Source: Candidatus Eisenbacteria bacterium (GTDB lineage Bacteria; Eisenbacteria; RBG-16-71-46; SZUA-252). Taken from it: a stretch of DNA of 35,629 nt. This document shows positions 4,217 to 35,629 of this stretch, piece after piece; positions within the stretch are counted from its first letter, which is position 1, and each line of letters opens with the position of its first letter. A program made the translations under genes and the position numbers. Under the pieces are notes generated by a model. The model worked only from the letters and a program-made list of their open reading frames with translations, did no database searches and was not told the DNA's origin. Location: positions 1 through 35,629 of the forward strand of contig DASTBC010000016.1 in NCBI GenBank assembly GCA_035712245.1, in the 5' to 3' direction.

Positions 4217-5173
4217 CTAAGGGTTTCGGTCGAGCTGAGCCGCGAACGTGGTGAGTGTCGGAAACCGCTCCATGCCCGGGACCTCCGGCGCTCCGGCACC
4301 GCCGAACCAGAGCCGAACCCGTTTGGGAAGGCTCTCGCGCAATCGGTGAGCTTCCTGTTCGGCGCGCGCTCGCGGAACCGCCGCGGACACACTGATGACG
4401 ACTGCTTCGGCTCCCCCCGAGGAGATGGTGGCCGCAACCTGCTCGGTCGGCGTGTCGGCACCGAGATAGATCACGCGGTATCCCCGCACCGCGAGGAGCA
4501 CGCTCACCATGAGGAGCCCCCCCTCGTGCGTGTCCCCCGGAAGAAGCGCCGCCGCCACGCGAGCACCATTCGCTTCGCGGTCGAAGGGCTCCCGGACCTC
4601 TCGGAGGAAATCCGAGAGACAGGCCGAAGCGAAATGCTCGTGACGGATCTCGATGCGACCCTCTTCCCACTCGTGTCCGACACGTGTCATGAACGGTCCC
4701 GAGATCTCCTCGAGGAACCGGAGCGGTCCCATGCGTCCCCAGGCCGCACGCAGCTCGCGCATCAGAGAGCCGCGATCGAACCGGATCGAGGCATGGAGGA
4801 GGGTTTCCTGGAACCGCCTGACCTCGCCTTCCTGGAAGGCCGTCGCGCCCCTCTCGGGAGGTGCTCCTACCGCCGGTTCGTTCAGCGAGAGAAGCGAGTC
4901 CAGCTGGGAGACCGGGAGATTCAGAACGTCGGCCGGACGATGCCCTTGCGCGAGGAGCCTCGCGACGCGCCGGAGCCGCTCGACGAAGGCCGCCGGGTAG
5001 AGCCGATGCCCGGACGGCTTTCGCTTCGGCCTCGGGTTACCGTAACGGCGCTCCCAGGTGCGAAGGGTCTCGGCGGGGATCCCCGTGGCGCGTGACAGGG
5101 CCCCGATCGAGAGCGGCCTCGCGAGCGTCTTGGGGTGAGGGATCCCGTCCTGGTGCTGCTTCTCGTCAGGCAA
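4217..5173 (-). CDS. MerR-family regulator with B12-binding photoreceptor module (CarH/LitR-like)
   Basis: A 318-residue cytoplasmic regulator. Residues about 20-90 are a MerR winged helix (LSIGALSRATGI, TLRTWERRYG, RLYP). Residues about 115-200 form the helical cap and about 205-318 the cobalamin-binding Rossmann domain. The diagnostic residues of adenosylcobalamin photoreceptors are present: Trp169 followed by nine residues and Glu179-His180 (Wx9EH), and DTHEGG, whose His216 is the expected lower axial cobalt ligand. In known CarH/LitR proteins the dark tetramer represses and light breaks the Co-C bond to release DNA. The TTG start at 5173 follows GGAGAGGTGGAA; a longer in-frame extension to 5317 has poor composition. 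No carotenoid gene lies nearby; the adjacent barrel, fasciclin and DUF378 genes are plausible targets. Confidence 0.9.
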   Translation of the reverse strand: MPDEKQHQDGIPHPKTLARPLSIGALSRATGIPAETLRTWERRYGNPRPKRKPSGHRLYPAAFVERLRRVARLLAQGHRPADVLNLPVSQLDSLLSLNEPAVGAPPERGATAFQEGEVRRFQETLLHASIRFDRGSLMRELRAAWGRMGPLRFLEEISGPFMTRVGHEWEEGRIEIRHEHFASACLSDFLREVREPFDREANGARVAAALLPGDTHEGGLLMVSVLLAVRGYRVIYLGADTPTEQVAATISSGGAEAVVISVSAAVPRARAEQEAHRLRESLPKRVRLWFGGAGAPEVPGMERFPTLTTFAAQLDRNP

Positions 5174-5268: not shown

Positions 5269-5913
5269 CTAGAACCCGAACGCAAGACCCCATGAGGCTT
5301 GAAAGCTGTTCGGCCACCAGCTCGTCTCGGCGCCGGAGTCGTCCACCTTCGCCACCCCGAAGGTGTGGCCGACCTGGCCCATGATGCCGACGGTCTCGGA
5401 GAGCATCATGAATCCTCCGATCCGACCCGAGACCCCGAACCGGGTCACCGACTCGGACTCGGTCTCGGAGCCGCCGACGTCCAGCTTCTGCTCACCGGAC
5501 CAGTACTCGACGCCCGGTCCCAGGAAGAACTGCAGCCGGTCACCGACATTCCCGACCTTGTCCACCCCGAGCCGGAACTTGAGCGACGTTCCGGTCGCGT
5601 CGATCTCGGGATCCGCCGACGTGGCGCCCTTCCAGTTCATGGACGAGAACCCGTACGCACCCGAGATCGCGAGCGCGTAGTCGGGGCTCAGGGACCGCCA
5701 GTACTCCGCGTTCACGTTGGTCTCGGGCGATGTCGTCGGGGCGAGGTACGTCCCCGTTCCGACCGACGTCGGAGCATATCCGTCCGCCGTTCCCTGGCCG
5801 AGACCGATCGACAGGCGGTTCTTCATGGCGCTGGCCGTTTCAGACTGGGCGTAGGCGGGAACCGCGCAAGCCGCCACGCCCAGGGCGATCACTCCGATCA
5901 AGGCTCGATTCAT
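5269..5913 (-). CDS. Outer-membrane beta-barrel protein, small OmpW/OmpX-like size
   Basis: A 214-residue exported protein. The signal peptide runs MNRALIGVIALGVAAC to about the AYAQ cleavage site. The mature part alternates hydrophobic and polar residues in short strands with Asp/Ser/Gly-rich turns and ends in a terminal aromatic (GLAFGF), the pattern recognised by the BAM machinery. A strong AGGAGAGGAG precedes the ATG. The gene is followed after about 95 bp by the CarH-like regulator and preceded by the fasciclin gene only 33 bp away, so fasciclin and barrel are probably cotranscribed. No ligand or channel role can be read from sequence. Confidence 0.75.
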   Translation of the reverse strand: MNRALIGVIALGVAACAVPAYAQSETASAMKNRLSIGLGQGTADGYAPTSVGTGTYLAPTTSPETNVNAEYWRSLSPDYALAISGAYGFSSMNWKGATSADPEIDATGTSLKFRLGVDKVGNVGDRLQFFLGPGVEYWSGEQKLDVGGSETESESVTRFGVSGRIGGFMMLSETVGIMGQVGHTFGVAKVDDSGAETSWWPNSFQASWGLAFGF

Positions 5914-5946: not shown

Positions 5947-6453
5947 TTACTGCGGCAGCAGCACCGTATCGATGACGTGGATGACACCGTTCCGGGCGGT
6001 GATATCGGTGGCAGTGACGTTAGCGTCGTTGACCTTGACGCCTCCAGCCGTGCTGATCGTCAGGCTCTGACCGTTCGCGGTCGGCAGGGACGGACTCGTG
6101 ACGACCCTGGCCGCCGGATACTCTCCCGGCACCACGTGGTAGAGCAGGATCTGCTTCAGGGCGGCCGGATTGTTCAGGAGCGACTGGAGCGTCGCAGGGT
6201 CGATCTTCGCGAACGCCTCGTCCGTGGGAGCGAAGACCGTGAACGGTCCCTTACCCTGCCCCGACAGTGTGCCCACGAGATCGGTGGCCTCGAGAGCCGT
6301 GAGGAGCGTGTTGAAGGACCCGGCCTCCCGCGCGACCTGAACGATGTTCTTCTCCTTGGAGCTCTTCCCCGAACCCGCGGTCGCATCCGACGGAACGATA
6401 CCGCTGAGAGCGATGAGGCCAGCAGCCGCGAGCACGACACCAGACTTGAGCAT
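5947..6453 (-). CDS. Secreted fasciclin (FAS1) domain protein
   Basis: A 168-residue protein with a signal peptide (MLKSGVVLAAAGLIALSG) and one complete FAS1 domain: FTVFAPTDEAF (H1 box), LLYHVVPGEY and the terminal NGVIHVIDTVLLP (H2 box). FAS1 proteins act outside the cytoplasm in adhesion or small-ligand binding. The start at 6453 has AGGAGG at the right distance; the open frame extends to 6603 but that part crosses the regulatory region. It lies 33 bp upstream of the barrel gene. The upstream gap carries a TTTGAA-N5-TTCAAA dyad over a possible -35 element, so the gene is a candidate for repression by a dimeric regulator. Confidence 0.92.
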   Translation of the reverse strand: MLKSGVVLAAAGLIALSGIVPSDATAGSGKSSKEKNIVQVAREAGSFNTLLTALEATDLVGTLSGQGKGPFTVFAPTDEAFAKIDPATLQSLLNNPAALKQILLYHVVPGEYPAARVVTSPSLPTANGQSLTISTAGGVKVNDANVTATDITARNGVIHVIDTVLLPQ

Positions 6454-6533
6454 GACGACTTCCTCCTTTGGACCTACCGGTTGCGAACGAACCTCTTCGA
6501 CCACTTGGACGACGCCCCCTATGATGCCCATGT

Positions 6534-6550
6534 TTTGAACAGGATTCAAA
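6534..6550. promoter_or_regulatory. Inverted repeat TTTGAA-N5-TTCAAA, candidate operator
   Basis: Perfect 6-bp arms with a 5-base spacer. It overlaps the possible -35 of the fasciclin promoter and lies about 80 bp from that start codon. The sequence TTTGAACA recurs at 6691-6698, overlapping the end of the TATAAT on the other side of the gap. The CarH-like regulator 1.4 kb away is the nearest candidate binder, but no experimental operator is matched here. Confidence 0.4.
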
Positions 6551-6685
6551 CAGGTTTCTAAGGCTGGCTCGACTAACGGGGTCCGAGGCGATTTCTTCAG
6601 CATAAATGATTGTTAATCAGTTATATATGGCTTGCCCGACGGTCCCAGCGGGGGTGGGGCCTCGTTCGAGGTTCCTAGAATCGAA

Positions 6686-6691
6686 TATAAT
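6686..6691 (+). promoter_or_regulatory. TATAAT -10 element for the DUF378 gene
   Basis: A perfect consensus -10 hexamer in an A+T-rich island about 92 bp before the DUF378 start codon. No convincing TTGACA is found 16-18 bp upstream, so the promoter is either activator-dependent or weak. The downstream TTTGAACA overlaps the last T. Confidence 0.4.
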
Positions 6692-6783
6692 TTGAACACA
6701 TCTGAAGCAACGCGCGGGCGGCACCACGGCGCGCGTGACACGGTGGTGAACCGTTCCACAGGTCCCTGGAAGGAGGGTTCCAC

Positions 6784-7008
6784 ATGAAGGCTCTAGAAGT
6801 ACTGGCAGCGGCGCTCGTGATCGTGGGTGGGTTGAACTGGGGGCTCGTTGCGGTTGCGAACTTCGACCTGGTAGCGCTTCTCACCGGCGCCGGCGACTTC
6901 GGGTCGAAGAACGTTCTCGGGGCCGTGATCTATGGGCTGGTGGGGGTCTCGGCCGTGTACCAGATCCTCACCTGGAGGCGCGCACAAAGGCAAACCGTGG
7001 AGCCGTGA
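6784..7008 (+). CDS. DUF378 family small membrane protein
   Basis: A 74-residue protein with two predicted transmembrane helices (about 5-27 and 43-62). It has the family hallmark GGLNWGLVA near residues 15-23 and a second small-residue helix LGAVIYGLVGVSAVYQI, followed by a basic tail. The start has GGAAGGAGGGTT upstream. The function of the family is not known; members are often found in stress or envelope contexts. The gene is transcribed alone and is closed by a strong hairpin 31 bp downstream. Confidence 0.88.
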   Translation: MKALEVLAAALVIVGGLNWGLVAVANFDLVALLTGAGDFGSKNVLGAVIYGLVGVSAVYQILTWRRAQRQTVEP

Positions 7009-7824: not shown

Positions 7825-10800
7825 ATGGTCGGCAAGAAGCTGCGCGCATACGAGATCACCGAGGAGATCGGCTCCGGCGGCATGGCCACCGTGTTCCGGG
7901 CCTATCAGCCGAGCATGGACCGGCACGTGGCGATCAAGGTCATCCGCTCGTCCATCCTTCACGACCGCGCCCTCCGGGAGCGCTTCCAGCGCGAGGCGCG
8001 GCTCATCGCGCGGCTCGAGCACCCGCATCTCCTTCCCGTCTACGACTTCGACGGGGAGCACGATCCCCCGTACATCGTCATGCGGTACCTGGACGGGGGC
8101 ACCCTGAAGCAGGTGCAGCAGCGTGGCAGCGTGCCCCGAGGAGAGTTCCTCTACATCCTCCGCCAGCTCGCGGGGGCGCTCGACTACGCGCACCGCCAGA
8201 GCATCGTGCACCGAGACCTCAAGCCCTCGAACGTGATGATCGACAAGGAGGGGAACGCCTTCCTCACGGACTTCGGGATCGCGCGCGCCGCCGGCGGGGA
8301 CAAGGACCTCACGGGCACCGGCCTCATGATCGGGACCCCCGGCTACATGGCGCCCGAGCAGGCCCGCGGAGACGGACAGGCGGACAAGGCGGCGGACATC
8401 TACTCGCTCGGCGTGATCGCCTTCGAGTCGCTCACGGGCTCCGCTCCGTACGAGCACGAGAGCAGCTTCGAGATCATCCTCGCTCACATGAACTCACCGG
8501 TGCCCAAGGCGAGCGAGCGAGCCAAGGACCTGCCCAAGGGCGTCGACGGCGTGCTCGCCCAGGCGCTCGCCAAGGATCCCAAGCGGCGGTTCGCCACCGC
8601 GACGGAGTTCGTGGACTCGCTCGCGAACGCCCTCAAGATCAAGCCCAACGAGGCTCGCTCGGCGCTCCAGTCCATGACGCAGACGATCTCGGTCGACCAG
8701 CTCGCGGCGTTCCGCGCCCAGACGGGCGAGTCCGACACGCCCAGCTCGGCGACGCCTTCCGACCAGCAGCGCCAGATGACCGCGGTCTCCGTGGACGTCA
8801 AGGAACTGGCCGAGATCCTCTACGAGGGCGGCGCCGACACGGAGCGCGCCAAGGCGACGCTGGACGCGCTCTGGACCGCGTTCGCCGAGATCGCCAAGGA
8901 GTCCGGCGGCGTGCTCCAGAGCCGCGTGGAGGCGACGGGGCTCTTCCTCTGGGGGCGTGACCGCTCCCGCGAGGACGACGCCGAGAACGCCATTCGCGCC
9001 GCGCTCCGGATGCAGGACCGAACCCTTGCCGAGACGCGCAAGGTGCTCGGGGCGTCATGGGAGCCGACCGAGGAGAATCCGCTCCCCTTCGCATCCGGCA
9101 TCACGACGGGCCCGGTGCTCCTCGAGCGAGACACTCATAGCGGCTCCTACAACGCGAGCGGCGCCCCGATCACGCTCGCCGTACGGCTGAAGGACACCGC
9201 TCCTCCGGGAGGGGTCATCGTCGCGCACGAAACCTTCACGCTGGTGCGCGGCGTGTTCAGCGTCTTCCAGAGGGAGCCCCTGCGCGTGCGGGGCCGCAAG
9301 GACCCGATCGAAACCTATCTCGTCACCCAGGTGCGGCCGCGGGCGTTCCGTCTACGCGCCATGGGGATCGAGGGCGTCGAGACGAAGATGATCGGGAGGG
9401 AGATCGAGCTCCGGCTCCTCCAGGAGGCGCTCACCCTCACGCTCGAGGACGGCGAGACCCAGGTGGTCACCGTCGTGGGCGAGGCGGGAGTCGGAAAGTC
9501 ACGGCTCCTCTTCGAGTTCAGCAACTGGACGGACATCATGGAGCAGACCGTCTGGTTCTTCCAGGCCCGCGCCACGCAGCCCTCGATGCTGCAGCCCTAC
9601 TCCCTCACTCGTGATCTCTTCTCGTTCCGCTTCAAGATCCTCGACTCGGATCCGCTCTCGGTCGTGCACGAGAAGTTCGTGAAGGGCGTCGAGGAGTTCA
9701 TGGGGGCCGGTTCCGAGCGACAGGCACATTTCATCGGACAGCTCGTCGGATTCGACTTCACCAGCAAGCCCGAAGTCGAGGCCGCCCTGAGCGACGGCGA
9801 GACCTTCCGGCACATGGCCCAGCAGTATCTCGGAGAGCTCTTCAAGAGCGCGTCGCAGGTGAATCCCGTGATGATTCACATCGAAGACATCCACTGGGCA
9901 GACGACCGGTCGCTCGATCTGATCAACAACCTGGTCCGCGACAACACGAACCTTCCCTTGTTCGTCCTCTGCATGGCGCGGCCGAGCCTCTACGAGCGCC
10001 GGCCCCAGTGGGGGGAGGGGCAGCGCTTCCACGAGCGGATCCAGCTCGAGCCCCTGTCTCAGCTCTCGAGCCGGCGACTCGTGAGGGAGCTCCTCAAGAA
10101 CGTTCCCGAGGTGCCCACGGCCCTGCGCGACCTCATCGTGGACCGGGCCGACGGGAATCCGTTCTACATCGAGGAGCTGATCAAGGCACTCATCGACGAC
10201 CGCGTGATCGTGAAGGGTGATCCTCACTGGTCGGTCGACACGACCCGCCTTTCGACGGTGCGGGTGCCGGCCACGCTCACCGGGGTGCTGCAGGCACGAC
10301 TCGATACCCTTCCCCAGCCGCTGCAGCAGCTCCTCCAGCGCGCTTCCGTGGTGGGCCGGATCTTCTGGGATGCCGCGGCCATCCATCTGAGCCGGGAGTC
10401 CGCCGGGCTCACCGCCGACGAGGTGCAGGACAGGCTTGCGGACCTGCGCGACCGCGAGATGATCCTGCAGCGGGAGGAATCCAATTTCGCCGGGACGGTG
10501 GAGTACGTCTTTCGGCACGCCATCTTGCGCGACGTGACGTACGACACGGTGATCCCCCGGCAGCGGCGTGCCCTGCACAAGCTGGTTGCGGACTGGCTGA
10601 TCGAGGTGGGAGGCGAGCGCGCCGGCGAGCACACGCTCCTCGTGGCCGAGCACTACGCCCGGGCCGAAGAGGCGTCCCTCGCGTCCGGGCAGCTGGCGAA
10701 AGCCGGGGAGCGCGCGTTGCAGCTCTCGGCCCTGGACGAGGCGGGGACGCTCCTCCAGCGTGCCCGCGAGATGCTGACGGGCCCCGAGCACACGGAACAG

Positions 10801-11757
10801 CGGATCCGTGTCGATCTTCTCCGCGCCGATCTCGAAGGAATCCGAAGCACCTATGACAAAGCCACCGAGATCCTCAAGCCGGCTCTGGAGGATGCCCGCT
10901 CGATCGGGAACGCGACCCTTCAGGCCCACATCCTCGGACAGCTCGGAAGACTATGCATGTGGCGGGCCGATGCGGCGGGGGCCAAGAAATACCTCGAGGA
11001 AGCGCTCGCGATGGCTCGTACCGCCAACAATACGGAAACCCTGATCTTCAACCTCCGCCAGCTGGGGAACGCCCTCACGCTGCACTCCCCTGCCGAGGGA
11101 ATTCGCTATCTCGAGGAGAGCGTGGATCTCGCGCGAAAGCATGGCGATCAGCTCGCCGAGGCGCACGGACTGAACTCCGTGGCCATCGCGCAGAGTCTCA
11201 TGGGCGATCTCGTGCAGGCGGAGGCGACCTACGTCCGGGGACTCGAGCTGAATCGCGTCCTCAAGAACCGGGTCTCGGAGACCATGATCCTCGGCAATCT
11301 CGCGGGACTCCACGCGGCGACGGGGGATCTCGACCGCGCCGAGCGGGAGGCGCGCGAGGCGATGGCGATCGCGAAGGAGATGGCTTCGCCGCCGCTTCGA
11401 ATGAACTGCGAGGTTGCATTCGCGGACATTGCCCTGCGACGGAAGCACAACGAGGAAGCGATAAAGTGGATCCGGGCGTCGACCGACTCGATGCGGGAGA
11501 TCGGCACTCGCCCGACGGCCATCCCCTTGATGCACGGAATCCTCCGCGCACGGGCGGGCGATCGAGCCACGGGCTTGCGGTGGATCGGCTTCACCATGGC
11601 GAACGACTCGAACAAGAAGGAAATGGAGCTGTTCCTGAAGGGATTCATGGACGAGGTTCGCGGCGACTGGACGGAGGATCAGGCCCAAGCGGCCATGCGC
11701 GAGGGAGAGACGCTGAACCTCGAGGAGATCCTGGCGGAAGCCGAACGGACGGGCTGA
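7825..11757 (+). CDS. Ser/Thr protein kinase fused to degenerate nucleotide cyclase, AAA/STAND ATPase and TPR repeats
   Basis: A 1310-residue cytoplasmic signalling protein. Residues about 9-275 are a complete Hanks-type kinase: GSGGMATV loop, Lys38 in VAIK, HRDLKPSN with Asp131, DFG at 149-151, APE at 177-179. Residues about 310-510 align with a class III adenylate/guanylate cyclase (TAVSVDV, GLFLWG, ASGAPITLAVRL), but the second metal Asp position of the usual GDG is a Thr-Gly (ATG) and the Asn of VNLAARL is Thr, so catalysis is doubtful. Then an ATPase module with Walker A GEAGVGKS (about 551-558) and Walker B/sensor IHIEDIHWAD (about 688-697). The last 350 residues are TPR-like helices. 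Transcribed alone; length matches this multidomain class. The kinase is probably active, the cyclase probably a ligand-sensing or regulatory relic. Confidence 0.93.
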   Translation: MVGKKLRAYEITEEIGSGGMATVFRAYQPSMDRHVAIKVIRSSILHDRALRERFQREARLIARLEHPHLLPVYDFDGEHDPPYIVMRYLDGGTLKQVQQRGSVPRGEFLYILRQLAGALDYAHRQSIVHRDLKPSNVMIDKEGNAFLTDFGIARAAGGDKDLTGTGLMIGTPGYMAPEQARGDGQADKAADIYSLGVIAFESLTGSAPYEHESSFEIILAHMNSPVPKASERAKDLPKGVDGVLAQALAKDPKRRFATATEFVDSLANALKIKPNEARSALQSMTQTISVDQLAAFRAQTGESDTPSSATPSDQQRQMTAVSVDVKELAEILYEGGADTERAKATLDALWTAFAEIAKESGGVLQSRVEATGLFLWGRDRSREDDAENAIRAALRMQDRTLAETRKVLGASWEPTEENPLPFASGITTGPVLLERDTHSGSYNASGAPITLAVRLKDTAPPGGVIVAHETFTLVRGVFSVFQREPLRVRGRKDPIETYLVTQVRPRAFRLRAMGIEGVETKMIGREIELRLLQEALTLTLEDGETQVVTVVGEAGVGKSRLLFEFSNWTDIMEQTVWFFQARATQPSMLQPYSLTRDLFSFRFKILDSDPLSVVHEKFVKGVEEFMGAGSERQAHFIGQLVGFDFTSKPEVEAALSDGETFRHMAQQYLGELFKSASQVNPVMIHIEDIHWADDRSLDLINNLVRDNTNLPLFVLCMARPSLYERRPQWGEGQRFHERIQLEPLSQLSSRRLVRELLKNVPEVPTALRDLIVDRADGNPFYIEELIKALIDDRVIVKGDPHWSVDTTRLSTVRVPATLTGVLQARLDTLPQPLQQLLQRASVVGRIFWDAAAIHLSRESAGLTADEVQDRLADLRDREMILQREESNFAGTVEYVFRHAILRDVTYDTVIPRQRRALHKLVADWLIEVGGERAGEHTLLVAEHYARAEEASLASGQLAKAGERALQLSALDEAGTLLQRAREMLTGPEHTEQRIRVDLLRADLEGIRSTYDKATEILKPALEDARSIGNATLQAHILGQLGRLCMWRADAAGAKKYLEEALAMARTANNTETLIFNLRQLGNALTLHSPAEGIRYLEESVDLARKHGDQLAEAHGLNSVAIAQSLMGDLVQAEATYVRGLELNRVLKNRVSETMILGNLAGLHAATGDLDRAEREAREAMAIAKEMASPPLRMNCEVAFADIALRRKHNEEAIKWIRASTDSMREIGTRPTAIPLMHGILRARAGDRATGLRWIGFTMANDSNKKEMELFLKGFMDEVRGDWTEDQAQAAMREGETLNLEEILAEAERTG

Positions 11758-14286: not shown

Positions 14287-15113
14287 TCGTCCACCTCGTC
14301 GACGGCACGTACGAGCTCTTCCGCCACTTCTACGGGCTTCGCCGCTTCCACAAGGGACCCGACCGACCGTACGGCGCCGTGACGGGCGTGCTCGGCACGG
14401 TGCTCGAGATGATCGAAGGCGGGGCGACGCACCTCGGCGTCGCGACCGATCACGTCATCGAGTCCTTCCGGAACGAGCTATGGGACGGGTACAAGACCGG
14501 GGAGGGGGTCGAGCGGGCCCTCCTCGCGCAGTTCCACCCGCTGGAGGAAGCGCTCGCAGCCATGGGTGTCGCGGTCTGGCCCATGGTCGAGCTGGAGGCG
14601 GACGACGCGCTCGCATCGGCGGCGCACCGCGCGGCGCGCGACAAGCGCGTGGAGAAGGTCTGCATCTGGACGCCGGACAAGGACCTCGCGCAGTGCGTCC
14701 AGGGGGATCGCGTCGTGCAGGTGGATCGAAGAACGAAGAACATCCGGAACCAGGCCGGGGTCGTCGAGAAGTTCGGCGTGGAGCCCGCGCTGATCGCCGA
14801 CTATCTGGCTCTCGTGGGCGACACCGCGGACGGGTTTCCGGGTCTGCCGGGAATCGGGCCGGCCGGGGCCGCGCGGCTCCTTCGCGCGCACGGTCCCCTC
14901 GAGCGATTCCCCGAGGAGGTGCTCGGCGCAAAGCGCGAGATGGCGCTCCTCTTCAAGACGCTGGCCACGCTTCGTACGGACGCTCCCCTCTTCCGGCGCG
15001 TGGACGAGCTGCGATGGATGGGCCCCACCGGGTCGTTCGCGGGGTGGGCCGAGCGAATGGAGGCGCCGCGCCTGCTCGAGCGGGCGAACAAGGCGCTCGC
15101 GAAGATCACGTGA
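14283..15113 (+). CDS. FEN/5'-3' exonuclease family protein (PIN-H3TH)
   Basis: A 276-residue stand-alone 5' nuclease resembling the N-terminal domain of DNA polymerase I. Acidic metal-binding residues appear in order: VDGTYELF (Asp7), ATDH, ELEADDALA, TPDKDLAQ, and GDTADGFPGLPGIGP, the last leading into the helix-hairpin DNA-binding motif. Stand-alone members process flaps or RNA primers. The ATG at 14283 sits inside the stop of the AlkB-like gene; an open frame reaches back to 13530 but is a shadow of AlkB. The end overlaps the convergent kinase gene by eight bases. Pairing with an alkylation-repair enzyme suggests a DNA repair role. Confidence 0.92.
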   Translation: MIVHLVDGTYELFRHFYGLRRFHKGPDRPYGAVTGVLGTVLEMIEGGATHLGVATDHVIESFRNELWDGYKTGEGVERALLAQFHPLEEALAAMGVAVWPMVELEADDALASAAHRAARDKRVEKVCIWTPDKDLAQCVQGDRVVQVDRRTKNIRNQAGVVEKFGVEPALIADYLALVGDTADGFPGLPGIGPAGAARLLRAHGPLERFPEEVLGAKREMALLFKTLATLRTDAPLFRRVDELRWMGPTGSFAGWAERMEAPRLLERANKALAKIT

Positions 15114-17463
15114 GTCCGACCCGCGCGAGAAGGGCGCTCCATCTCGGATCGCCGTGGAGCGACCGGAACGATGGCTCCGGTTTCATCTCGGAGAGCCCGC
15201 CGTCCTTCAGCTCGTAGGCGCGCTCGAGCCACCGGAAGGCCGCGTCCACCTCGCCGCGCGCCGCGTAGACCTCCGCGACCTGGTACGCGCCACCGTCGCC
15301 GTACTTGCGAATGAGCTCCTGGAGCGCCGCCTCCGACTCCTCGCCTCGGCCAAGGTGATGCAGGATCACCGAGGAGGACCAGAGCCGGTACACTTCCTCT
15401 CGCTCGAGCCGGGCCTGATCGAGCGCTTCCTCTCCGCGCCCTCTCGCCAGGAGCACGAGGGCGAATCCGTAATGGACACCCATCCGGTCCGGGCCGAGCT
15501 CGATCGCCATCCGGAACGCTTCTTCCGCCTCCTTGAGGCGGTCGGCCGCGTGGTACGCGATCCCCAGCACCTGGTACCCGGCCGCGCTCAAGGGATCCTG
15601 CTCGACCGCGCGGCGGTAGAGCTCGATCGCCTCGTCGAGGCGACCGAGATTCGAGATGAGATTGCCGGCGAGCCGCAGAACGGACGGGTTCCCCGGCGCC
15701 GCGTCGAGCGCGCGGCGAAAGGACGCCTCCGCGGCCTTCCAGTCCCGGTCGTAGTTCATCTGCACCGCGCCCAGCCGGACGTGCCCTTCGGCAAGGTTCG
15801 GCTCCAGCTCGAGGGCGCGCATCGCGGCCTTCCTCGCGCGCTCGTTGCCCGCGTCGATCGGGTACCAACCGTATCCCGCTTCCATGGCGTACGCGGCGGA
15901 GAGATCCGCCCACGCGAGCGCGAGCGTCGGCTCGAGCTGGAGCGCCTCGATGAGGTATCCCACCCCCTTCGTGAGATCCTCGTGACTTCCCCGATGGACG
16001 AGATGCCTCCCGTGGAGGAGGAGCCGGTAGGCCTCGCCGCTCTCCCCCCGTCCTCGGGCCGCGGTCGCGACGTCCGCGCGCGCGGCCGCTCCCGCCCTGG
16101 AGTCCGGGGCCTCTCCGAGGAGCGTGGTGCGGAGCTCCTTCACCACGCTCTGCGCGATGTCGTCCTGCACCGCGAAGATGTCGTCCAGCATCCGGTCGTA
16201 CGATTGAGCCCAGAGGTGATAGCCGTCCGAAGCCTGGACCAGCTGGACCGAGATGCGCACGCGGTTCCCGGACTTCCGGACCGTCCCCTCGAGCAGCGTC
16301 GCCACGTTCAGCTTCCGCCCGATCTCGCGGAGGTCCTCGCTCCTCCCCTTGAACTGGTAGGACGAGGTCCTTCCGGCCACACGCAGCCCCGGGATCTTCG
16401 TGAGGACGTTCAGGAGCTCGTCCGCGAGCCCGTCCGAGAAGTACTCATCGTCCGGGTCGTGACTCCGGTTGGCGAACGGCAGCACCGCGATCGACGGAAG
16501 GCCCTGCACGCGCGCGGGGGCTCGCTCGTGGACGGTGGCATCGGCTGCGTGCGATGCACCGGCCGCTCCAGTGCGATCCCGGTCGAAGCCCTCCTCCAGA
16601 CGGTTTCGGTGGAGGAGGAGATCGGACCGAAGCTCGCGCGCAGAGCCGTAGCGGAGCGCGGGGTCCTTCTCGAGGCATCGTGCGACCACTCGATTCAGGC
16701 CCTCGGTGAGATCCGCCCGCAGATCGCGCGGCGGGATCGGCCGGTCGCGCAGGATCGAGGATGCGATGTCGGCGGGCGTGTCGCCGCCGAAGGGCCTTCG
16801 CTGCGTGACCATTTCGTAGAGGAGGATCCCGAGCGAGAAGAGATCGGTGCGCGCGTCCAGCTTCTCGCCCCGGATCTGCTCGGGAGCCATGTAGGGCACG
16901 GTCCCCGCGATCGAGCCCTCCTCGGAGGAGAACGATCCCTCGAGGGTCATGGCGCCTCCGTCCGTTTCCGCGGATGCATCGCGCCGCACGAGCTTCGCGA
17001 GCCCGAAGTCGAGGATCTTCACGCGCCCCTCGTGCGAGACCATGACGTTGCCCGGCGTGAGGTCGCGATGGACGATCCCCTTCGCATGCGCGGCGTCGAG
17101 CCCCTCGGCCGCCTGGGCCGCGATCTCGAGGGCATCCCGCTCGGGCAGCGGCCCCCGCTTCACGATCTCACGAAGCGTGTGGCCTTCGGCCAGTTCCATG
17201 ACCACGAAGCGGGTGCCCCGGTGCGTGCCGACGTCGAAGATCGAGACGATGTTGGGATGGTTGAGCGCGCCGGCGGCGCGGGCCTCGAGCTCGAAGCGTT
17301 GCACGCGGCGTCGGTCGCGCGCGAGATCACGGGGGATCACCTTCACGGCGACGTGGCGGCCGAGCCGGGTGTCTCGCGCGCGATAGACCTCTCCCATCCC
17401 GCCGGCGCCGAGCAGCGCGAGGAGCTCGTAGGGGCCCAGGCGGGACCCCGGTGCCAAGATCAC
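15106..17463 (-). CDS. Ser/Thr protein kinase with TolB-like domain and TPR repeats
   Basis: A 785-residue cytoplasmic protein. Kinase domain about 10-290: GAGGMGEV loop, Lys41, catalytic HRDLTPGN (Asp134), DFG 152-154, APEQ 193-196. The usual Lys two residues after the catalytic Asp (HRDLKP) is Thr136, which may weaken phosphate transfer. Residues about 322-445 hold a TolB amino-terminal-like domain (SIAVLPFANRS, EYFSDGLADEL, LLEGTVRKSG) that is common in bacterial kinases and adenylate cyclases. The rest is at least six TPR-type repeats. No transmembrane helix separates the domains. The GTG start at 17463 begins 10 bp after the stop of the SnoaL-like gene, so the two are one transcription unit. 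The stop region overlaps the convergent nuclease gene. Confidence 0.92.
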   Translation of the reverse strand: MILAPGSRLGPYELLALLGAGGMGEVYRARDTRLGRHVAVKVIPRDLARDRRRVQRFELEARAAGALNHPNIVSIFDVGTHRGTRFVVMELAEGHTLREIVKRGPLPERDALEIAAQAAEGLDAAHAKGIVHRDLTPGNVMVSHEGRVKILDFGLAKLVRRDASAETDGGAMTLEGSFSSEEGSIAGTVPYMAPEQIRGEKLDARTDLFSLGILLYEMVTQRRPFGGDTPADIASSILRDRPIPPRDLRADLTEGLNRVVARCLEKDPALRYGSARELRSDLLLHRNRLEEGFDRDRTGAAGASHAADATVHERAPARVQGLPSIAVLPFANRSHDPDDEYFSDGLADELLNVLTKIPGLRVAGRTSSYQFKGRSEDLREIGRKLNVATLLEGTVRKSGNRVRISVQLVQASDGYHLWAQSYDRMLDDIFAVQDDIAQSVVKELRTTLLGEAPDSRAGAAARADVATAARGRGESGEAYRLLLHGRHLVHRGSHEDLTKGVGYLIEALQLEPTLALAWADLSAAYAMEAGYGWYPIDAGNERARKAAMRALELEPNLAEGHVRLGAVQMNYDRDWKAAEASFRRALDAAPGNPSVLRLAGNLISNLGRLDEAIELYRRAVEQDPLSAAGYQVLGIAYHAADRLKEAEEAFRMAIELGPDRMGVHYGFALVLLARGRGEEALDQARLEREEVYRLWSSSVILHHLGRGEESEAALQELIRKYGDGGAYQVAEVYAARGEVDAAFRWLERAYELKDGGLSEMKPEPSFRSLHGDPRWSALLARVGLT

Positions 17464-17473
17464 GGGGCGCCGG

Positions 17474-17926
17474 TCAGGGCTTCTTCTCGGGACACGCGTC
17501 GCATCCCTTGTCGAAGAGGACACGCCACCTCCCGTCCGGCTCGAGCCGCCAGATGGACGTGAACGTGCCGATGAGGGCACCCGCGCGGTCGCGCACGGGA
17601 CCGCTGGACAGAGCGAGCGTCTTGGACGGGAGCACCTCCACCGTCTCCGGCTCCCACGAGAATGGAGCCTCCTTGCCCTCGTAGAACGGTTTCCACGCCG
17701 CGACGACCGCTTCGCGTCCTCGCAGGGGGCCCTTTCGGTTGAAGAAGATCGCTTCCTCCGCGACGTGGGTCGCGAACGCGGCATGATCCCGGTCCGCCAT
17801 CGTCTTGGCGAACGCGCGTTCGGCGTCTCGCACCTCCGCCGTGAGGTCGCGGTCCGCGGCGATGGAGCCGGAAGCCGCGAGCGCGCAGCAGAGCGCCGCT
17901 GGGATCACGAAGAGAAGCCTGGTCAT
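17474..17926 (-). CDS. Secreted SnoaL-like / DUF4440 protein
   Basis: A 150-residue exported protein. The signal peptide is MTRLLFVIPAALCCALAAS with cleavage near SIAA. The mature part follows the cystatin-like alpha+beta fold of the SnoaL/NTF2 superfamily: an amphipathic helix with AERAFAKTMADRDHAAFATHVAEEA, then IFFNRKGPLRGREAVV and a beta-sheet region ending in GRWRVLFDKG. A Cys pair, CDAC, lies near the end. Members include isomerases and many non-enzymatic ligand binders. GGAGGTG supports the ATG at 17926. It directly precedes the kinase gene, which makes a functional link likely but unproven. Confidence 0.85.
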   Translation of the reverse strand: MTRLLFVIPAALCCALAASGSIAADRDLTAEVRDAERAFAKTMADRDHAAFATHVAEEAIFFNRKGPLRGREAVVAAWKPFYEGKEAPFSWEPETVEVLPSKTLALSSGPVRDRAGALIGTFTSIWRLEPDGRWRVLFDKGCDACPEKKP

Positions 17927-32891: not shown

Positions 32892-34216
32892 TCGTCGACG
32901 ACGAGCCCAACATCCGGAAGAGCCTCGAGGGCGCGCTCGGCCGCGAGGGCTACGATGTGGACGGCGCCGCTTCCCTGGGCGAGGCGCGGGCGGCGCTTCG
33001 CGAGACGTACGACTTCGTCCTTCTCGACGTGTGGCTCCCGGATGGGAGCGGACTCGATCTCCTCGAGGAGATCCGCGCGCAGGCTCCCGAAACCGAGGTC
33101 CTCATGATGTCGGGACATGCCACGATCGACGCGGCGGTTCGCGCGACGCGGCTCGGCGCGTACGACTTCCTCGAGAAACCGGTGTCGCTGGAGCGCCTCC
33201 TCGTGCTGCTCCGGAACGCGGGGCGGGCGGCCGCGCTCGAGGCGGAGAATCGCCGCCTGCGCGCCTCGTGGTCACGCTCGATCGTCGGAGACGCGCCGGC
33301 GGTGCGGCGGCTCCTCGAGGAGATCGCCCTCGCGGGACCGAGCGGCGCGCGGGTGCTGATCCAGGGCGAGCACGGGACCGGCAAGGAGCTCGTCGCGCGC
33401 GCGCTCCACGACGCGAGCCCGAGACGGGGCCGCCCCTTCGTTGCCGTGAACTGCTCGGCCATCCCGGAAGAGCTGATCGAGTCCGAGCTCTTCGGACACG
33501 AGCGAGGGGCGTTCACGGGCGCCACGCAGGCGCGACGCGGCAGGTTCGAGGAGGCTCACGGCGGGACGCTCTTCCTGGACGAGGTCGGCGACCTGAGCCC
33601 GCGCGCGCAGACGAAGCTCCTCCGCGTGCTCCAGGAGGGCGAGTTCCAGCGCGTCGGCGGCAACCGCACGATCCGCGTGGACGTGCGCGTGATCGCGGCG
33701 ACGAACCGGAGCCTCATCGACCGGACGCGGAACGATCCCTTCCGGGAGGACCTGTACTTCCGGCTGGCGGTGGTGCCCATCGCCACGCCGCCGCTCCGCG
33801 AGCGAGCGGAGGACATCCCGCTCCTCGTCGAGCACTTCGCGGCGAGCCTCGCGGGCGAGAGCGGAGGACGGCCGAAGCGCTTCACGGTCGAAGCGCTGCG
33901 GCTCCTCTCCCGCCATCCCTTTCCGGGGAACGTTCGCGAGCTCCGGAATCTCGTGGAGCGGCTCCTCATCATGACCCCCTCGGGATCGATCGGTCCCGAG
34001 CACGTGCGCGCGGTTCTGCCTCGCGAGGACCGCGCGCCCGATGCCGCGAACGGCCTTCGGCTCGGGGATCTCGTCCAGCGCTTCGAGCGCGCGCAGATCG
34101 AAGCCGCGCTCGACGCCTGCGGCGGAAACGTCACGCAGGCCGCGTCGCGGCTCGGGCTCGAGCGGAGCCACCTCTACAAGAAGATGCGGAAGCTCGGCTG
34201 GAAGGCGGAGCCGTGA
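32876..34216 (+). CDS. NtrC-family sigma-54 response regulator
   Basis: A 446-residue activator. Receiver domain 1-120 with Asp8, Asp9, phospho-Asp51 (LLDVWLPDG), Ser79 and Lys101 (FLEKPV). Central AAA domain with Walker A GEHGTGKE (164-171) and the sigma-54 contact loop GAFTGA at 211-216, Walker B GGTLFLDE, arginine finger region FREDLYFRL. C-terminal Fis-type helix-turn-helix (NVTQAASRLGLERSHLYKKMRKLG). The GTG start has GGAGG in front and overlaps the histidine kinase gene by 16 bases. The final TGA overlaps the next kinase gene as GTGA. It should activate sigma-54 promoters once phosphorylated. Confidence 0.96.
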   Translation: MPSLLIVDDEPNIRKSLEGALGREGYDVDGAASLGEARAALRETYDFVLLDVWLPDGSGLDLLEEIRAQAPETEVLMMSGHATIDAAVRATRLGAYDFLEKPVSLERLLVLLRNAGRAAALEAENRRLRASWSRSIVGDAPAVRRLLEEIALAGPSGARVLIQGEHGTGKELVARALHDASPRRGRPFVAVNCSAIPEELIESELFGHERGAFTGATQARRGRFEEAHGGTLFLDEVGDLSPRAQTKLLRVLQEGEFQRVGGNRTIRVDVRVIAATNRSLIDRTRNDPFREDLYFRLAVVPIATPPLRERAEDIPLLVEHFAASLAGESGGRPKRFTVEALRLLSRHPFPGNVRELRNLVERLLIMTPSGSIGPEHVRAVLPREDRAPDAANGLRLGDLVQRFERAQIEAALDACGGNVTQAASRLGLERSHLYKKMRKLGWKAEP

Positions 34217-35629
34217 CCGCGCCGGACCATCCCGCGAGCCCGCGATACCGCGTCGTCCGGAGGCTCGGCACGGGCGGCATGGGCGAGGTGTTCCTGGCGG
34301 ACGACACGCGACTCGCGCGCCGCGTCGCGCTCAAGGTGCTCCCCATGGACGTGTGCGGGGACCCGGTGCGCCGCGAGCGGTTCCTCCGCGAGGCCCGCGC
34401 GGCCGCGATGCTCACGCACCCGAACGTCTGCGCCGTGTACGACACCGGCGAGGACGAATCCGGGTGCGTCTACATCGCCATGGAGCTGATCGAGGGCGCG
34501 ACCCTCGCCGACCGGCTGGCGGCGGGTCCCCTTCCCGAGCCCGACGTCGTCGAGATCGCGATCCAGGCCGCGGACGCGCTGGAGGACGCGCACCGGCGCG
34601 GGCTCGTGCACCGCGATCTCAAGCCGTCCAACCTCATGCTGGACGCGAGGGGGCGGGTCAAGATCGTGGACTTCGGGATCGCCTCGCGCGTGGTCGCCGC
34701 GAGCGACGAGACCGCGCCGGTCGCGCTCACGGGACCGGGCGAGATGATCGGCACGGTGGCGTACATGAGCCCGGAGCAGGCGCTCGGGCGTACCGTGGAT
34801 CCCCGCTCGGACATTTTCAGCCTCGGCGTGGTGCTCTACCAGCTCGCTTCGGGACGCATTCCCTTCCCCGGCTCGAACCTGGTCGAGACCATCGCCTCGA
34901 TCCTCCATGCGAGTCCGCCGCCGCTCGACCGGGCCCGGGTATCGGAGGGACTGGAGCGTCTGATCCGCACGTGCCTCGAGAAGGATCCCGCGCGCCGTTA
35001 TGGGTCGATGTCGGAGGTGCTCCGCGAGCTTCGGGGCCTCGGGGAGCGCGCCGGGACGCCCACGACGCCCGTCCACAACCTGCCGACTGCGACCACGACG
35101 TTCGTGGGACGCGAGCGCGAGCTCCAGGAGCTGGATGATCTCCTGGCCGCGCACCGGCTCGTCACCCTGACCGGCGCGGGAGGATCCGGGAAGACCCGGC
35201 TCTCGATCGAGCTGGCGCGACGATGCCTCTCCCGCTACCGCGACGGTGCGTGGCAGGCCTCCCTCGCGTCCCTCGAGGACGCGGGGCGGATCGCGTCGAC
35301 GCTCGCCGACTTGATCGGACTGCACGAGACGAACGAGGGCGAGGTGCTCGAGCAGCTCTCCGCGCACCTGTCCCAGCGAACCTTGCTCCTGGTCCTCGAC
35401 AATTGCGAGCACGTGCTGGCGGGCGCGGCGGCCGTGATCGAGACCCTTCTCCAGAGCGCTCCCGGGGTCAGCCTTCTCGCGACGAGCCGCGAGAGCCTGA
35501 ACGTTCCCGGCGAGCGCGTCTGGCCCGTGCCCACCCTCTCGGTCCCCGCCGCGGGCGAAGCTCGATCCCCCGGCGAGGCGCTCCGATTCGGAGCCGTCCG
35601 TCTGTTCGTCGAGCGAGCGACGGCACGGG
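34213..35629 (+). CDS. Ser/Thr protein kinase fused to a STAND/NB-ARC-like ATPase (3' end outside window)
   Basis: At least 472 residues; the gene runs off the window. Kinase domain about 11-280: GTGGMGEV loop, Lys41 in VALKV, HRDLKPSN with Asp135, DFG 153-155, SPEQ near 192. A short linker leads to FVGRERELQELDDLL, and Walker A TGAGGSGKTRL (320-330) with Walker B LLLVLDNCEHVL (about 394-405), the pattern of COG3903-type predicted ATPases in regulators. The remaining part of the ATPase plus perhaps repeats is beyond the window. It begins inside the stop codon of the sigma-54 activator, an unusual coupling of a two-component pair to a eukaryotic-type kinase. Confidence 0.92.
   Translation, partial: MTAPDHPASPRYRVVRRLGTGGMGEVFLADDTRLARRVALKVLPMDVCGDPVRRERFLREARAAAMLTHPNVCAVYDTGEDESGCVYIAMELIEGATLADRLAAGPLPEPDVVEIAIQAADALEDAHRRGLVHRDLKPSNLMLDARGRVKIVDFGIASRVVAASDETAPVALTGPGEMIGTVAYMSPEQALGRTVDPRSDIFSLGVVLYQLASGRIPFPGSNLVETIASILHASPPPLDRARVSEGLERLIRTCLEKDPARRYGSMSEVLRELRGLGERAGTPTTPVHNLPTATTTFVGRERELQELDDLLAAHRLVTLTGAGGSGKTRLSIELARRCLSRYRDGAWQASLASLEDAGRIASTLADLIGLHETNEGEVLEQLSAHLSQRTLLLVLDNCEHVLAGAAAVIETLLQSAPGVSLLATSRESLNVPGERVWPVPTLSVPAAGEARSPGEALRFGAVRLFVERATAR

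Follow-up and report, generated by a model that had tools for sequence, protein, structure and literature searches.

A CarH/LitR-type B12 regulator linked to putative envelope genes in Eisenbacteria, a candidate light-responsive repressor of its own locus

Introduction

CarH/LitR photoreceptors are known chiefly through their control of carotenoid and photolyase genes. In the Thermus thermophilus protein (TtCarH), His132 is the upper ligand of the light state (bis-His). CarH operators are tandem 11-bp repeats of the form nnnnTnnACAn, of which one or two full copies together with flanking partial ones are bound (PMC9304148; the published operator design is also given in PMC8156234). LitR light regulons extend beyond carotenoids in Pseudomonas, where class II LitR regulons include phrB, ufaM, folE and RudS; the literature that we found on these regulons does not mention fasciclin or DUF378. 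Class II LitR retains the four-helix bundle alone, which implies that it does not bind B12, whereas the regulator described here has a B12 domain.

Fasciclin (FAS1) proteins have been tied to light stress in other bacteria. RSP_1409 of Rhodobacter belongs to a singlet-oxygen sigma-factor response and is induced by singlet oxygen (log2 2.8 and 4.5; PMC7074977), and a fasciclin of Azospirillum, under the control of RpoE-ChrR, is tied to photooxidative stress and flocculation (work cited in PMC10949492); neither protein is under a B12 photoreceptor. Algal fasciclins are carotenoproteins that quench singlet oxygen (PMC7477208). Among the papers listed in the library that we searched, none pairs fasciclin with CarH/LitR and none pairs Eisenbacteria with a photoreceptor.

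Results

The stretch of DNA analyzed here (the window) comprises 35,629 nucleotides from a Candidatus Eisenbacteria bacterium (contig DASTBC010000016.1). On its minus strand, at 4217-5173, lies a frame of 318 codons with a TTG start and the Shine-Dalgarno-like sequence AGAGGTGG upstream. The product is laid out as a MerR DNA-binding domain, a four-helix bundle and a Rossmann B12-binding domain (Pfam MerR_1, 2e-13; B12-binding_2, 5.6e-10; B12-binding, 8.5e-10). A first-pass annotation had described it as a MerR-cobalamin regulator with Wx9EH and DxHxxG motifs, and the residues that it named were located exactly: W169, E179 and H180 in WEEGRIEIRHEH (residues 169-180), and D214, H216 and G219 in DTHEGG (214-219). 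The MerR domain also has the recognition-helix motif RxWERRY, as RTWERRY at 38-44. The accompanying claim of a full light-sensing signature calls for two qualifications. All four elements of the SignatureFinder signature GxxW/EH/GxxH/GxxxP, which was set by experimentally light-responsive proteins (PMC11796333), are present (G166xxW169, EH, G213xxH216, G238xxxP242), but the extended B12 motif D/ExHx2G/P-x41-SxT/V-x22-27-GG, although exact in spacing (DTHEGG, x41, SVS, x27, GG), has Ser at the last position of SxT/V, and the equivalent of His132 is E170.

When aligned to TtCarH (5c8d), with which it is about 30% identical, the regulator pairs W169 with W131, E179 with E141, H180 with H142 and H216 with H177, and further pairs E170 with His132, D240 with D201 and T215 with R176, the residue of the TtCarH dimer salt bridge. 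Domain order, fold, Wx9EH, the lower His ligand and an RxWERRY-type helix are thus shared, whereas His132 and R176 are replaced by Glu and Thr. Structure prediction, which the first-pass annotation had proposed, also places the regulator with Thermus CarH: an AlphaFold2 model built from 54 family sequences (pLDDT 92) has as its top Foldseek matches in the PDB full-length TtCarH chains, followed by the B12 domains of TtCarH and of CtMerR from Chloracidobacterium thermophilum (8jbs/8jbt), with TM-scores by target length of 0.7-0.86 and of up to 0.86 for the B12 domain. The domain orientation in the model differs from that in CarH, with full-length rmsd values of 9.6-17 Å. Both CtMerR, whose B12 domain is light-responsive, and the regulator have the complete four-element signature, at 24% identity over the B12 domain. 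Among NCBI models the CarH equivalog NF052513 fits best, yet its 119.5 bits fall far short of the cut-off of 400, which marks the regulator as a divergent family member outside the narrow core of that model. The chromophore-pocket residues and the predicted CarH fold support membership in class I LitR/CarH.

The His that directly follows the Trp of Wx9EH in TtCarH is absent from the regulator, and with Glu170 in its place a TtCarH-type bis-His light state is predicted to be unavailable. Only four of the 94 collected homologues have His at this position, and several proteins without it are light-responsive, namely CtMerR (Arg), SasPcob (Gln) and AbDPcob (Tyr) (PMC11796333), which argues that the residue concerns mechanism rather than membership. 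Against this, TtCarH carrying H132A is mostly still tetrameric in the light (PMC10442372).

The neighbors named by the first-pass annotation agree with Pfam, the barrel falling just under the cut-off. On the minus strand, a secreted fasciclin protein (5947-6453; PF02469, 1.4e-39, 135.6 bits, above the gathering score) is followed by a small outer-membrane beta-barrel protein (5269-5913; OMP_b-brl-like) and then by carH. The fasciclin gene starts at an ATG at 6453, with GGAGGAA upstream, and encodes a signal peptide. The gaps of 33 and 95 bp between the three genes are consistent with a single transcription unit, and they probably form one operon with fasciclin as its first gene. Divergent from fasciclin, and 330 bp from its start, a small DUF378 membrane protein is encoded on the plus strand (6784-7008; PF04070, 4.9e-17, 62 bits, above the gathering score). 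A sequence homologue of the window barrel was found only in G005/L056; the barrel at a Gemmatimonadales locus (L059) was considered as another and discarded, since BLASTP detected no similarity. Elsewhere in the window, at 7825-11757, 15106-17784 and 33031-35628, large frames appear by eye to contain Ser/Thr-kinase-like domains, the first of them running on into cyclase-like, ATPase-like and repeat regions.

The regulator has, as first noted, no carotenoid or photolyase gene adjoining it. In the genome assembly (312 contigs, 3.54 Mb, 96.7% complete, so that absences are provisional) no carotenoid pathway was detected and no CrtI-type desaturase reached the cut-off anywhere; two SQS_PSY genes considered as phytoene synthases proved to be HpnC/HpnD, followed by HpnE (squalene/hopanoid). 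A search with FAD_binding_7 had suggested that there was no photolyase at all, but a PF00875 match overturned this: one photolyase-domain gene lies on a different contig (C180), on which the operator pattern described below has no match. For AdoCbl there is both supply, in a BtuR/CobA-type adenosyltransferase gene on contig 42, and use, in a methylmalonyl-CoA mutase on the same contig; a PduO-type adenosyltransferase was not found in the genome. Judged by these genes, the genome can make AdoCbl.

Two operator-like sites lie in the fasciclin-DUF378 gap, both read on the plus strand. Site 1, on the fasciclin side (6521-6553), consists of ATGATGCCCAT GTTTTGAACAG GATTCAAACAG in 11-bp phase, with GTTTTGAACAG-GATTCAAACAG at 6532-6553; site 2, on the DUF378 side (6678-6710), consists of GAATCGAATAT AATTTGAACAC ATCTGAAGCAA, with AATTTGAACAC at 6689-6699, and overlaps a TATAAT at 6686-6691. 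The word TTTGAACA occurs in both, at 6534 and 6691. Each site has one full TnnACA repeat with flanking phased partial repeats, which resembles the myxobacterial CarH operators, with their one or two full repeats plus partial ones (PMC9304148), and would follow the 11-bp-phased design of T. thermophilus CarH/LitR. By a three-repeat score, site 1 alone reaches a p of about 0.04 against shuffles, and the OMP-carH and fasciclin-OMP gaps score no better than shuffles. A sigma-70 promoter search for fasciclin and DUF378 gave no convincing pair and no good -35 element. When the gap was compared with that of G005 (L035), which belongs to a different genus and aligns poorly elsewhere, just two words of at least 9 bases were common to both, TTTTGAACA and TTGAACACAT; their order is the same in the two regions, with one word by each gene.

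A pattern built from both sites occurs in the 3.54 Mb genome only at these two places, and a looser family pattern has its sole perfect genomic match in the same gap; both patterns were informed by the window sites themselves, so that this uniqueness argues for a local regulon and is no proof of binding. Other genomic targets were rejected because the remaining two-mismatch matches equal the reversed-pattern control. In a held-out test, a consensus from Eisenbacteria sites was applied to the 1 kb upstream of carH at 86 loci outside its making, among which there are close relatives: in 11-bp phase it had 13 matches, including matches at 15 of 15 positions, against 0-5 for other spacings and none for the reversed pattern. 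A phased motif of this kind was recovered upstream of Myxococcales family members.

The first-pass annotation had stated that its reading would fail if homologues never lay near fasciclin or DUF378 genes; our survey ran this check and did not overturn the reading. It covered 118 genomes and 80 named loci, with 47 genomes (G000-G046) from the class Eisenbacteria, several of which are matched by the loci named Candidatus Eisenbacteria; relatives' loci were found by an alignment-based contig scan, a single-sequence scan having given none. W, E, H and H are all kept in 83 of the 94 CarH homologues. Within the class, CarH orthologues and fasciclin each occur in 15 of 47 genomes and together in 10 (Fisher p=0.0009), and the six genomes with DUF378 are all CarH-positive (p=0.0005). 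A DUF378 copy lies at most 4 kb from a CarH gene in all six, and fasciclin is adjacent to CarH in six of the 10 genomes that have both; assuming uniform placement, chance would produce such proximity with a probability of about 1e-15. The pairing of envelope genes with CarH is not chance. Fasciclin adjoins CarH-family genes at 16 loci in several phyla, mostly within 1.3 kb of carH, and those beyond the class include Planctomycetota and a proteobacterium. On the CarH tree this linkage requires about 12 changes (shuffled labels: mean 14.2, minimum 11), a value near that of shuffled labels, which indicates repeated gain and loss rather than one inheritance.

The arrangement varies among loci. In G022, carH and a DUF378-fasciclin-DUF4397 series are divergent, and TTTCTGTACAG AAGCTAGACAA lies between them; at L059 the order is operator-like repeats, barrel, DUF378, carH. 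DUF4397 proteins, several of which start with a lipobox-like sequence, adjoin carH at L036, L039, L040, L044, L050, L055 and L057. A photolyase gene lies within 5 kb of the CarH orthologue on the same contig in G025, G026, G028 and G031, and near other family members there are genes for CMAS/cfa, RudS-type TudS-DUF1722, lipocalin and a DUF1731 SDR. In G025 (L061, 2735-3526), DUF378 and fasciclin are a single uninterrupted frame directly upstream of carH, which is either a natural fusion or a frame-keeping assembly deletion. In G001, from the same genus as the window genome, the CarH homologue (L139, 1108-2079) has Cys in place of W169, and the genome has neither fasciclin nor DUF378; these changes may reflect a loss of the system there. 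Phased 11-bp repeats lie just upstream of that homologue, at 1026-1056.

Discussion

We consider it likely that the regulator is a class I AdoCbl-binding CarH/LitR photoreceptor-repressor of a small local unit for envelope and photooxidative defense. From sequence we infer that the regulator binds AdoCbl and DNA, that light releases it, in which direction it regulates and that the regulon is protective. In the dark, AdoCbl-bound oligomers would occupy the 11-bp-phased repeats between fasciclin and DUF378 and repress both DUF378 and the fasciclin-OMP-carH operon, the regulator's own gene included. Green, blue or UV light would break the Co-C bond and the oligomer would let go, after which the secreted fasciclin, the barrel and the DUF378 membrane protein would be made and would defend the cell surface against photooxidative stress. 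The simplest account would be that the protein represses its own divergent locus in the dark and is released by light. Several observations weigh against this reading: E170 in the place of His132, given how H132A behaves in TtCarH; T215 in the place of R176; the low NF052513 score; a single full TnnACA repeat at each site; no good -35 element; and the G001 orthologue with its Cys for W169 and neither fasciclin nor DUF378 in its genome.

The adjacent targets would be envelope genes rather than carotenoid genes as for TtCarH, and where myxobacterial CarH controls carotenogenesis, the window genome yielded no carotenoid pathway. The first-pass suggestion of a response aimed at the envelope rather than at pigments has in this way gained support, from the recurrent linkage, the phased sites in 6454-6783 and the carotenoid pathway not being detected. 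By analogy, 'envelope' here probably stands for protecting the surface against photooxidation, because fasciclin is known as a photooxidative-stress protein in Alphaproteobacteria; the links of fasciclins to singlet oxygen favor such a protective role, with adhesion or aggregation as the alternative.

The regulator could instead sense the level of AdoCbl, so that the envelope genes follow B12 status and light release is incidental or lost. Glu in the place of His132 would fit such a sensor, as would the genome's use of AdoCbl in methylmalonyl-CoA mutase, but the Trp, Glu and His that hold the photolabile adenosyl group are intact, photolyases and other light-response genes adjoin orthologues, and no B12-transport or -synthesis gene was recognized in the neighborhood; we regard this as unlikely. 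It is more doubtful still that the protein represses independently of B12, as a CarA-like or degenerate paralogue under the control of another protein or a sigma factor. MerR-B12 paralogues without a need for B12 do exist (CarA and class II LitR; PMC9304148, PMC9758184), and the G001 orthologue has lost the Trp, yet what defines CarA is that it has lost the Trp region of Wx9EH, whereas the regulator keeps its Trp and most homologues keep all four residues.

A last alternative takes the linkage as shared inheritance of a stress island, with CarH controlling only itself or distant genes, and agrees with the four genomes (G012, G023, G024 and G038) in which fasciclin is on another contig than CarH. 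The scatter of fasciclin linkage over the CarH tree, the linkage of DUF378 in every class genome that has it, the candidate sites conserved between genera by both divergent promoters and the lack of another strong site in the genome all speak against it, and we find it very improbable.

Returning to the light-released repressor, the recurrence of the same pairing in several phyla suggests that light turns on the protection of the surface. More tentatively, and with somewhat more doubt than confidence, we propose that Eisenbacteria and relatives have an envelope-only B12 photoreceptor regulon (fasciclin, DUF378, DUF4397 lipoprotein and small barrel) with no carotenoid genes alongside, which would serve light-driven surface remodeling and in which DUF378 and fasciclin would act as one functional unit, as the single frame at L061 also suggests. 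The recurrent pairing offers a clue to what DUF378 and DUF4397 do in these bacteria and connects FAS1 proteins with light signaling by another route than ChrR-RpoE. It also points to candidate light sensing in a lineage that is uncultured and in which we detected no carotenoid pathway.

Further features were seen at other loci of the family. At Nitrospinaceae-type loci (L062, L064-L066, L069, L070, L072, L075, L076 and L110), no more than 100 bp separate the CarH homologue from a following gene that by eye is CbiX/ferrochelatase-type-like. Often, a conserved secreted protein that has no Pfam match (L065, 1691-2398) precedes the homologue at loci of this type. At the myxobacterial/deltaproteobacterial loci L081, L088, L106, L109, L113 and L119, the gene immediately before the CarH homologue resembles that of an ECF-type sigma factor, and several of these loci have TGAACAG repeats, in phase, some 620 bp before carH. 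Two Planctomycetota loci, L103 and L104, have a near-identical imperfect inverted repeat, GTCYAGAAAAATAMTTRGACAY, before fasciclin, where the repeats at other loci are direct.
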